Positions 6,147 to 8,406 of a stretch of DNA of 12,964 bases are shown in pieces. Origin of the DNA: Verrucomicrobiota bacterium (GTDB lineage Bacteria; Verrucomicrobiota; Verrucomicrobiia; Verrucomicrobiales; DEV007); assembly GCA_020629815.1 (NCBI GenBank), contig JAHDCN010000050.1:1-12964 (forward strand), read 5' to 3'. A program made the translations under genes and the position numbers. The number at the start of each line of letters is the position of its first letter. Positions within the stretch are counted from its first letter, which is position 1. Below the pieces are notes generated by a model. The model did no database searches, had not been told where the DNA came from, and saw only the letters and a list, made by a program, of their open reading frames with translations.

Positions 6147-7151
6147 ATGAGCGATAAGGACGACAAACCGTCAACGAGCACATCAACAGTGCCGCTGAAA
6201 AAAGAGACTGTTCGGATCAGTCTTCGTGCCCAGACTGAAGATTCCGGGCCAGTAGCACCAAAGGGATCTACAGCACCCATCACTACCGGTGATGCGACTA
6301 CCGATCCAGTTTCTCCCAATGTTGATGCCTCAACAGATCCAGTTGATACTGGCGGAGGTGCAACTGCACCCATCCCTAACGATGGTTCCACTGCACCGAT
6401 AGCCAGCGCAGAAGTTTCCGCAGCTCCAACCGGGCCCACAGGACCTTCCGCAGTGCCAGCACCGCCGGCTCCAGCGCCAACTCCGTCACCGGCACCCCCG
6501 CCGGCTCCCGCAGCTCCAACACCACCTCCTGCTCCATCTGCAAGTGGAGCCCCAGCGCCACCTCCGCCGCCCGCCGCAGGAGCAGCCGCTCCTCCACCGC
6601 CTCCATCCGGGAAACCTTCTGCAGCCGCTGTTGATGAGCTTGGACCGACTAAGCCCGTTTCTGTAGCACCACCCGCACCAGGAGCTCCTGATGGTGCGAC
6701 CAAACCAGTTCAAGCCGCACCGGCTCCACCATCTGCACCCGGCGCGAAAACTGTTCCTCTTTCCAAAGCTGACCCACTTGGGCCAACCAAACCCGTCCAA
6801 ACAGCACCTCCAGGTGCCACGACACCGGTTGGTGCCAAGACGATTCCTTTGGCCAAAGCACCTGGCGTCGGCGGTCCTGCCGCGGCACCCGGCAAAGCAA
6901 CGACACCTCTGCAAGCAGGTGGAGCCAAGCCATTGCCACAGGCGACTGTCAAAATGGGTGGAACCCAGCCGATGGGACAAAGCAAGACTCCAACTTCGAC
7001 CATTAGTCAGGCTCCGGATATCCAATCCACTGCTGTAGAGGAAGAAGAGTGGGAGGAAGAATACGAAGAAGGCGGCTTGATGCCGTTTGCTATCATTGTG
7101 TTCCTACTAGCCTTGGCACTGCTCGCCGTTGAGCTTCTCACGAAACTGTAA
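6147..7151 (+). CDS. Pro/Ala-rich disordered protein with C-terminal membrane anchor
   Basis: A 334-residue product of low complexity. The N-terminus has KKETVRISL (residues 18-26), a motif I associate with Verrucomicrobiota Pro-rich proteins. Residues 90-160 are a Pro/Ala core with two penta-proline runs. A short motif T-x-P-[V/I/L/M] recurs 14 times, at Thr 14, 42, 52, 63, 73, 82, 168, 185, 202, 214, 225, 232, 252 and 273. Longer repeats include LGPTKPV (165 and 211) and GAKT[V/I]PL[S/A]KA (199 and 229). Residues 298-308 are strongly acidic (Glu/Trp/Tyr), followed by one membrane helix (312-331) at the extreme C-terminus. There is no signal peptide, so it is probably tail-anchored with the disordered part in the cytoplasm. 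No Shine-Dalgarno is seen. Function unknown; a scaffold or tether is inference. Confidence 0.85.
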   Translation: MSDKDDKPSTSTSTVPLKKETVRISLRAQTEDSGPVAPKGSTAPITTGDATTDPVSPNVDASTDPVDTGGGATAPIPNDGSTAPIASAEVSAAPTGPTGPSAVPAPPAPAPTPSPAPPPAPAAPTPPPAPSASGAPAPPPPPAAGAAAPPPPPSGKPSAAAVDELGPTKPVSVAPPAPGAPDGATKPVQAAPAPPSAPGAKTVPLSKADPLGPTKPVQTAPPGATTPVGAKTIPLAKAPGVGGPAAAPGKATTPLQAGGAKPLPQATVKMGGTQPMGQSKTPTSTISQAPDIQSTAVEEEEWEEEYEEGGLMPFAIIVFLLALALLAVELLTKL

Positions 7152-7173
7152 AAATTTTCAACCCAACGAGATT

Positions 7174-7260
7174 ATGTTGTTTGCAATTATTGTCTTTATT
7201 TTCGCAGCCGGAGTACTCGCAATCGAGATCATCACCAAGCTGAACAACGGAGGCTTTTAG
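7174..7260 (+). CDS. 28-residue membrane micro-protein, paralogue of the upstream anchor helix
   Basis: An ATG-to-TAG ORF of 29 codons that is too short for usual gene calling. The product starts MLFAIIVFIFAAG and ends EIITKLNNGGF, a single hydrophobic helix. Aligned without gaps to residues 312-334 of the upstream protein, 14 of 23 positions are identical (M, FAIIVF, A, LA, E, TKL) and nearly all others are I/L/V swaps. The two lie in different reading frames, 22 bp apart, so this is not simple read-through. Codons differ at many silent positions, which suggests an old duplication kept at protein level. A strong terminator follows 31 bp after the stop, so both genes probably share one transcript. 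The ribosome binding site is weak (ACGAG close to the ATG). It could be a dimer partner of the larger anchor; expression is unproven. Confidence 0.62.
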   Translation: MLFAIIVFIFAAGVLAIEIITKLNNGGF

Positions 7261-7286: not shown

Positions 7287-7324
7287 AAAAGAGCCTCTTC
7301 GTTTCGGCGGAGAGGCTTTTTTTG
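7287..7324 (+). terminator. Intrinsic terminator after the Pro-rich / micro-protein pair
   Basis: AGCCTCT (7292-7298) pairs with AGAGGCT (7311-7317). The stem extends inward through TCG/CGG to a 6-nt TTTCGG loop, giving 10 pairs including one wobble. A run of seven T starts at 7317, and an A-run (7287-7290) precedes the stem. Confidence 0.92.
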
Positions 7325-7427: not shown

Positions 7428-7757
7428 ATGGCACACGAATCAATTGTTGAACTCACTGAAGAGACTTTCACTGGAGAAGTCGAAGAATCATCCGTTCCCG
7501 TTCTGGTGGACTTCTGGTCTGAGCATTGCGGACCCTGCAAGATGCTGGCACCGGTTCTCGATGAAGTTGCGGAAGAGCTCGGCGATACCGCCAAGATCAC
7601 TAAAGTCGACGTGATGAACAACCGCGAACTCGGAATGAAATTCTCCGTTCGGGCAGTTCCCACACTTCTCTTTTTCAAAGACGGGGAAATCAAAGAGACC
7701 AAAACAGGCATCATGAGCAAAGACGCAATCATTGCTCAACTTCAGTCACTTTCGTGA
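7428..7757 (+). CDS. trxA: Thioredoxin, with HCGPC active site
   Basis: A 109-residue protein, the normal size for a cytosolic thioredoxin, without a signal peptide. VLVDFWSEHCGPCKMLAPVL (26-45) is the beta-strand and active site with Cys34 and Cys37, and RAVPTLLFF (76-84) carries the cis-proline Pro78. It reduces protein disulphides using electrons from thioredoxin reductase. Oddity: the tryptophan that normally precedes the first active-site cysteine (WCGPC) is histidine (His33), while the other core positions are conventional. The longer frame from 7377 was rejected because the extra residues are unlike the family and would overlap the candidate promoter. Downstream lies an unusual repeat array before the next gene. 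The symbol is by family; other thioredoxins may exist in the genome. Confidence 0.93.
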   Translation: MAHESIVELTEETFTGEVEESSVPVLVDFWSEHCGPCKMLAPVLDEVAEELGDTAKITKVDVMNNRELGMKFSVRAVPTLLFFKDGEIKETKTGIMSKDAIIAQLQSLS

Positions 7758-7824: not shown

Positions 7825-8406
7825 TTGAAAACGAAAGCATCTCCCAAGATTCACCTACCTCTTCTGGTGGGACTTCTCATCCTTACAATTTTGTATCGTT
7901 GGGGAGCAGCTCACTTTTCCTTTTTGGGCAATACAGCTCCACTCATGGCAGTATGCTTTGGTGGAGCTCTTTTGTTGGGAGCAAGGTTTTGGTGGTTACC
8001 CATCTTGCTGCTGGTCGGTAGCGATTTGTTTCTCGGGCTAACGCGTGGCACCGGTGTAGGCAACTACACGCTGATGTCTGCGGGCTTTTACGCGGTGGTG
8101 GCATTCGTTGCCAGCCGCTTTGGGCAATGGTCCGGTCGCACATGGCCGGCTCTCTGGTGCGGGACACTGCTTGCGAGCGTAGGGTTTTACGTCTTTGCCA
8201 ATACCTTTTCCTGGATGGTCAGCCCGGAGTATGCCAAGTCCATTGCCGGTTGGTGGCAGAGTCAAACCACCGGTCTGCCTCAGTATTCTCCACAGGCCTG
8301 GGTGTTCCTCCGCAACGCGTTGATTGCCGACACCATCTGGTGTGTAATCGCGGGGCTTTTGTTCTTTCGGAAATCGGCACCTGCCGAACCTGTGCCTGCT
8401 CGATAG
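7825..8406 (+). CDS. DUF6580-type integral membrane protein
   Basis: A 193-residue protein with about five or six membrane segments (roughly 11-29, 38-52, 57-72, 83-97, 108-127 and 160-181). NTAPLMAVCFGGALLLGARF, the SDLFLGL segment, FANTFSWMVSPEYAKSIAGW and FLRNALIADTIW match my recollection of the DUF6580 family. That family resembles small ECF-type substrate-binding membrane components, though no ECF ATPase or T-component is nearby and the substrate is unknown. The start is TTG: an in-frame TAG at 7813-7815 excludes anything upstream, and the next ATG (codon 41) would delete the first helix. No Shine-Dalgarno is visible, and a perfect hairpin ends 4 nt before the start. It converges on the TauE/SafE gene with a 12-bp gap. 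Confidence 0.82.
   Translation: MKTKASPKIHLPLLVGLLILTILYRWGAAHFSFLGNTAPLMAVCFGGALLLGARFWWLPILLLVGSDLFLGLTRGTGVGNYTLMSAGFYAVVAFVASRFGQWSGRTWPALWCGTLLASVGFYVFANTFSWMVSPEYAKSIAGWWQSQTTGLPQYSPQAWVFLRNALIADTIWCVIAGLLFFRKSAPAEPVPAR

Follow-up and report, generated by a model that had tools for sequence, protein, structure and literature searches.

Genes and features at the locus

The window, a 12,964-nt stretch of contig JAHDCN010000050.1 from a Verrucomicrobiota bacterium, carries on its forward strand a gene for a Pro/Thr/Ala-rich membrane protein and, downstream of it, a short open reading frame for a one-helix micro-protein (hereafter the mini). The features are:

6147..7151, + strand: 334-aa Pro/Thr/Ala-rich membrane protein, the presumed partner (ORF listing)
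6186..6224, + strand: N-terminal short linear motif TVPLKKETVRISL of this protein (DNA pattern for [VI]PLKKETV)
7038..7070, + strand: acidic stretch EEEEWEEEYEE just ahead of the membrane helix (read from the sequence)
7080..7148, + strand: C-terminal membrane helix of the larger protein, residues 312-334 (sequence; helices of relatives)
7154..7173, + strand: G-poor, SD-less leader of the micro-protein (2 G in 20)
7174..7260, + strand: 28-aa one-helix micro-protein, 87 nt including the stop, ATG 7174, TAG 7260 (ORF listing, profile searches, census, dN/dS)
7287..7322, + strand: intrinsic terminator-like hairpin closing the pair (folding: 16-bp stem, -22.4 kcal/mol)
7428..7757, + strand: thioredoxin gene (PF00085, E 2.4e-29), a conserved neighbour outside the claimed mechanism

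The short ORF translates to MLFAIIVFIFAAGVLAIEIITKLNNGGF (beginning MLFAIIVF). An earlier sequence-only reading of this DNA had described it as a single hydrophobic helix that matches the 334-aa protein over residues 312-334, without gaps, at 14 of 23 positions, and the match was confirmed: when the helix was shuffled with its first Met kept, the best of 200,000 shuffles reached 12/23 against the real 14/23, and the ungapped BLOSUM62 score of the window's mini against the tail stood 10 SD above 60 shuffles. Nucleotide identities over the 23 codons numbered 15, 20, and 9 at codon positions 1, 2, and 3, which indicates that the likeness is maintained at the protein level and agrees with the earlier remark that codons differ silently while the protein pattern is kept. 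In the window, 22 nt separate the stop of the large gene from the ATG of the mini, and the two are in different reading frames. The gap modulo 3 across 136 loci was 0, 1, or 2 in 59, 38, and 39 cases; this rules out a read-through or frameshift product, and the earlier reading had already dismissed read-through on account of the two frames. A 43-aa version starting at TTG 7129 was also ruled out, since relatives have in common an ATG at the helix start. The score against the NADH-ubiquinone oxidoreductase MWFE subunit (PF15879) was 14.6 bits, below the Pfam cut-off of 27, and there was no Rfam match within the window.

Folding supported the terminator that had been suggested to close the pair (z -5.1; 0/200 shuffles equally stable), with seven T ending the 3' arm of the hairpin. 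A consensus scanner did not include this hairpin among its calls, and our guess is that the stem reaching into the T run caused the miss. The thioredoxin gene adjoins the pair in loci of the families that we label f1 (to which the window belongs), f2 (genus g33), f3, and f4 (genus g12), and was not beside it in the f4 loci of genus g9 that we examined. Most loci of the window's genus have the order M20 peptidase (divergent), Pro-rich gene, thioredoxin, 193-aa gene; the last of these (7825-8406 in the window) encodes a hydrophobic protein for which no Pfam match at E<=1 was found.

The larger protein

Homologues of the 334-aa protein were present in 35 of 56 genomes searched, its own included, some of the distant matches being partial. 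It has no Pfam match, and its homologues in protein databases (22 matches, 8000 scored candidates) were annotated as 'hypothetical protein' where named. Its motif TVPLKKETVRI[ST]L is strongly conserved and occurs once per matching genome. The DNA pattern for [VI]PLKKETV was found in 224/386 genomes of the order, in 12/13 genomes of family f3, and in 18/387 genomes of a phylum sample, all 18 being among the 45 of the same order and none among the 342 others. The exact pattern was absent from the genomes listed for genus g4; with two mismatches allowed it matched in 14 of 16 g4 genomes, the counts being below those of a reversed control in 15/16 (in G042 they were 18 vs 17), so these looser matches carry no weight.

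The protein of the window contains 14 T-x-P-[ILVM] tetrapeptides, compared with a shuffle mean of 1.1 and a median of 4 in 181 relatives, and these are spread along the Pro-rich region (6147-7148). Their threonines might be phosphorylated and recognised in that state by FHA domains. Acidic residues precede the membrane helix in many of the listed relatives. No signal peptide was apparent by eye, which argues for an N-in topology of the large protein, whereas by the positive-inside rule of membrane topology the N-facing acidic side and the lysine that follows the helix speak against it. The window's protein ends with its helix, as do tail-anchored (C-tail) proteins; unlike these, the versions in f4 and some f1 genera carry about 50-60 residues after the helix, which is then not C-terminal, so the earlier description of the mini as a copy of a tail anchor holds where the large protein ends with the helix and fails in f4 and those f1 genera.

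Distribution of the gene pair

Using a profile of three small proteins, we found the small ORF in 4/33 genomes of the window's genus, namely G000 (the window's own), G005, G023 (where the pair is split over two contig ends), and G029; the other matches below E 1e-6 were to the tail of the large protein itself. Two genomes carry no weight in this count, G002 (large gene not found) and G018 (large gene running off the contig). Two metagenome-assembled genomes outside the genus also have the small ORF (JABDJT010000046.1 and JAEUHH010000073.1). A six-member profile gave matches, tails included, in 49 of 74 family genomes (E<=0.01) and 79 of 386 order genomes (E<=0.001). In 54 stretches taken from profile matches there were 44 small ORFs of 25-30 aa, and all 44, which are outside the genus, lay 11-75 nt after a long ORF of the large-protein kind. 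A KKETV-type motif was present in 40 of these 44 pieces, the other four being cut by a contig end or an N run.

We used the KKETV motif as an independent anchor to find loci. The resulting census covers part of the 224 pattern-matching genomes, with families f5 and f6 left out, and comprises 188 genomes with a motif locus, 181 of them with a readable end of the motif's frame. An ATG ORF of 17-80 codons within 110 nt and with a hydrophobic 15-residue window was found in 138/181. One scan-positive genome (G024) was judged a chance match; in G170 the scan chose an ATG inside a large gene broken by an N run, the true small ORF coming from the profile search; and G247, G264, G296, G310, G357, and G370 (weaker, longer, or GTG-start versions) as well as the split G023 were added by eye. 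With these adjustments, and leaving the window's genus aside, the small ORF stands behind the large gene in 141/151 readable genomes (six by eye). The search for a short ORF after the Pro-rich gene in relatives, which the sequence-only reading had suggested as a check, was hence positive outside the genus and gave 4/33 within it. The accompanying idea of a local duplicate of the tail was not borne out, as the mini occurs in four families and is absent from most of the window's genus. As a control, 13/396 other long ORFs scored; 11 of these matches were minis or tails of the family itself, read in overlapping frames, and 2 were unrelated; a chance hydrophobic ORF is ruled out by this comparison (141/151 vs 2/396). 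The 138 scan-positive minis, from four families of one order, have a median length of 26 aa (range 19-66) and a gap of 8-87 nt, and 127 are under 90 nt including the stop. They were selected for hydrophobicity, and profile matches obtained without that filter agree.

The ten non-genus genomes without the mini were G033, G092, G081, G082, G083, G087, G089, G114, G209, and G332. In G033 the large-gene frame is broken, and a different ORF is followed, at a distance of 21 nt, by a small one (MPIAIICF...). The scanned contig of G092 looks foreign, and the genome's own locus (L091, with a KRETV variant) has the pair. On that contig (G092:C146, locus L096) both the end of the large gene and its 3' flank are almost the same as in G009, although G092 is of another genus, and by these sequences it looks like a contaminating contig; locus L062 (QQNE01000146.1) is also near-identical to G009 in the neighbour-gene tree. 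G079, whose motif was missed by the exact pattern, also has no mini. The 3' flanks of L172 (G332) and L228 (G209) resemble, by eye, a decayed small ORF with no ATG, with codons close to those of the 19-aa minis at L173 and L174. Part of genus g33 has a small protein with a long C-terminal extension, acidic where read (L144, L147, L162, L168, and L169, from G161, G151, G203, G341, and G240, respectively).

A type I toxin-like hydrophobic peptide would account for the length and hydrophobicity of the mini and for nothing else about it, and we consider it very unlikely given the fixed place by one gene in four families, the lack of an Rfam match in the window, and the one copy per mini-bearing genus genome.

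Selection and translation signals

In 29 disjoint same-genus pairs the mini had a dN/dS of 0.151 (245 synonymous changes over 625 sites, 125 nonsynonymous changes over 1580 sites). A value near 1 had been named in advance as counting against a functional micro-protein; the value obtained is not near 1 and points to purifying selection. Across 359 overlapping, non-independent pairs, pN/pS was 0.52 in frame compared with 1.11 and 1.39 in the shifted frames. The mini is under protein-level purifying selection.

We compared the 20 nt preceding different classes of ATG. Before 136 mini starts, G made up 5.5%, a pyrimidine stood at -1 in 91%, and SD-like cores occurred in 1%, similar to the sequences before 131 large-gene starts (12.4%, 81%, and 2%, respectively). 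The corresponding values were 29.7%, 34%, and 17% before 35 ATGs downstream of mini-less large genes, and 29.5%, 11%, and 16% before 370 out-of-frame ATGs inside large genes. The first ATGs past the mini (123), some of which may be true starts, gave 21.7%, 70%, and 8%. With its G-poor, SD-less leader, the mini start looks like the genuine gene starts beside it. Akkermansia has been counted among the SD-scarce bacteria (PMC10783764).

Based on the census, the dN/dS, and the start signature, the earlier claim of an independently translated and selected membrane micro-protein is very likely correct, translation being predicted. Prodigal scores start-stop pairs above 90 bp (PMC2848648); the mini is shorter, and this floor would explain why it went uncalled. 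It is probably a gene present in four families that annotation has missed. A decaying partial duplicate of the 3' end of the large gene, untranslated or translated by accident, would fit the likeness to the tail and the presence in only 4/33 genus genomes. However, the dN/dS of 0.15, the G-poor start signature, the occurrence in four families, and a tree in which an ancestral mini is simplest (below) leave this idea with almost no probability.

Relation of the two helices

The two helices resemble each other differently from family to family. In f1, PFAIIV...VLAIE can occur in both; in f2, FLAAAAVLVIQFMT stands opposite FLLAAAVLAIAFMT; in f3, VGAIAA is common to both in G049, G106, and G109; and in f4 the large protein has PLSVVC...VVQM where the mini has MPIALL...ALNF. 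Scores of own versus swapped pairs across families gave 18.9 (null 1.3±2.0, maximum 7.2 of 60), and across f2, f3, and f4 without f1 they gave 10.4 (null 0.4±2.6, maximum 10.1; p<=0.005). Within families the pooled value was 9.4 (null 0.6±1.6, maximum 3.95), and it splits to significance in f1 only (18.0; null 0.5±2.8; p<=0.005), the likeness of own pairs being not significant in f2 (2.9, p 0.14) or f3 (8.5, p 0.11), negative in f4 (-4.1, p 0.92), and 0.8 (p 0.35) for f2-f4 pooled. We accordingly rejected within-family coupling as a general property. The families are thus shown to differ in matched ways, with genus-level matching of the helices in f1 only. The signal across families would equally arise if each family had undergone its own ancient duplication.

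Identical codons were slightly commoner in own pairs than in cross-genus pairs in all four families (0.36-0.45 vs 0.32-0.37), and on these values recent gene conversion is unsupported as a general cause of the likeness, although some conversion may have occurred. In G005 (L025) the mini and the tail have 14/23 third positions in common and the same unusual Arg, and local gene conversion is possible there.

These comparisons bear on whether the mini might be an independent small membrane protein acting elsewhere, e.g., in another envelope complex, and resemble the large helix by common descent only. The lack of significant genus-level matching within f2, f3, and f4 and the long C-terminal extensions of a few f2 versions (G151, G161, G203, G240, and G341) are in line with this, whereas the position of the profile-found small ORFs behind the large gene (44/44 outside the genus and 4 in it) and the cross-family matching that persists without f1 speak against it; overall we consider it unlikely.

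Evolutionary history

In a phylogeny of three neighbouring genes that included outgroups and omitted eight taxa for want of sequence, the mini-less genus members form one clade (support 64), and G023/G029 and G000/G005 diverge ahead of it. Elsewhere in the tree, G081-G083, without the mini, lie beside mini-bearing G080 (support 100), and G087/G089 (support 69) and G079 are likewise without it. This suggests an ancestral mini and several later losses, the one in the genus having modest support (64). A first tree rooted on G017 had led to a gain of the mini within the genus, which we discarded since with outgroup genera an ancestral mini is simpler.

The anchors of mini-less genus members are highly alike: their 21-residue core is 18.4/21 identical on average (25 genomes), and 18.1/21 in 74 pairs with M20 identity below 0.66. 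Those of mini-bearing genus members are 8-16/21 identical in six pairs, three of which have M20 identities of 0.59-0.66. An HMM of f2 and f4 minis beat the corresponding anchor HMM in 25/26 mini-less genus anchors, 2/4 mini-bearing genus anchors, 4/18 f1 anchors from other genera, and 4/5 other mini-less anchors; HMMs from f4 only favoured the mini in 17/26, 2/4, 1/18, and 1/5 of these, respectively. These scores suggest that, in the mini-less clade of the genus, the anchor acquired the character of the small helix; the 26 tails concerned, being nearly identical and from close relatives, represent a single event or a small number of them.

Proposed function

We think it reasonably probable (about 60%) that the ORF is a genuine gene and that its product, a single-helix membrane micro-protein, serves as a dedicated subunit of the upstream Pro/Thr-rich [VI]PLKKETV protein. 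The large and small genes would share one mRNA that stops at the terminator. Packing of the mini against its related counterpart in the large protein, the two being in register and having E/Q/N/A close to the helix end, would give the anchor of this seemingly disordered, Thr-x-Pro-rich protein a second helix, and the heteromeric two-helix anchor would stabilise or position the large cytoplasmic domain. Among genus members without the mini, the large helix in most cases resembles the small one, and a homomeric anchor may have replaced the pair. A broader form of this proposal, which we offer as tentative and rather doubtful, is that the two-helix anchor is order-wide and near-obligate, that selection couples the helices, and that upon loss of the mini the large anchor takes on the mini's character.

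The sequence-only reading had offered a heteromeric partner or a competitor; a partner is the best reading, and the evidence does not separate it from a titrating competitor, which we rank behind it as less likely. Such a microProtein-like competitor would bind the large helix or its docking site and limit self-association or docking. The likeness of the helices, strongest in the window's family, would suit it, as would the uniform gene order of the examined loci, by which the two products would be kept at a fixed ratio, and the apparently repeated loss, which is possible for a regulator. However, a constant gene order kept in 141/151 genomes outside the genus is more subunit-like, and no promoter-like site was found near the mini (a weak test), so that on balance a competitor seems improbable.

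Comparison with known systems

KdpF is the single-helix small subunit of an enterobacterial membrane complex, and the genes neighbouring CydX, KdpF, and AcrZ are cydAB, kdpABC, or acrB. We know of no case among these three in which the small helix is a relative of its partner's own anchor. CydX and AcrZ are described as very short, easily missed one-helix partners of larger enterobacterial membrane proteins (PMC6005532). The mini, a short ORF coding for one hydrophobic helix, is like them in this respect, its role as a dedicated partner being predicted from the conserved adjacency and the matching of the helices, and single-helix partners such as CydX and AcrZ are by analogy its closest functional class. 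It is not itself a CydX, KdpF, or AcrZ, the neighbours at this locus being an M20 peptidase, the Pro-rich protein, and thioredoxin, and whereas the partners of those proteins are enzymes or transporters, the presumed partner of the mini is a single-helix Pro-rich protein. The microProteins (miPs) of plants and animals are short single-domain proteins that resemble the interaction segment of a larger relative; those known to us carry soluble dimerisation domains and are usually encoded elsewhere in the genome, in contrast to the mini with its membrane helix and its gene adjacent to that of the larger protein.

The global smORF catalogue GMSC includes ORFs predicted from 30 nt up, and the term 'verrucomicrobi' does not occur in its main text (PMC11364881); members of this family may be listed there anonymously. 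Our literature searches gave no printed description of the gene pair or of the [VI]PLKKETV motif protein, in keeping with the earlier remark that no described micro-protein of this type was known to the reader.

With the mini, the [VI]PLKKETV protein gains a candidate partner, and the several apparent losses provide a natural experiment on the mutual recognition of single membrane helices. The G-poor start signature offers a route to other sub-90-nt genes in this group. If the two-helix-anchor reading is true, the order would offer, among single membrane helices, a natural series of switches from hetero- to homo-oligomer, and the genes responsible would be ones lying beneath the annotation limit.
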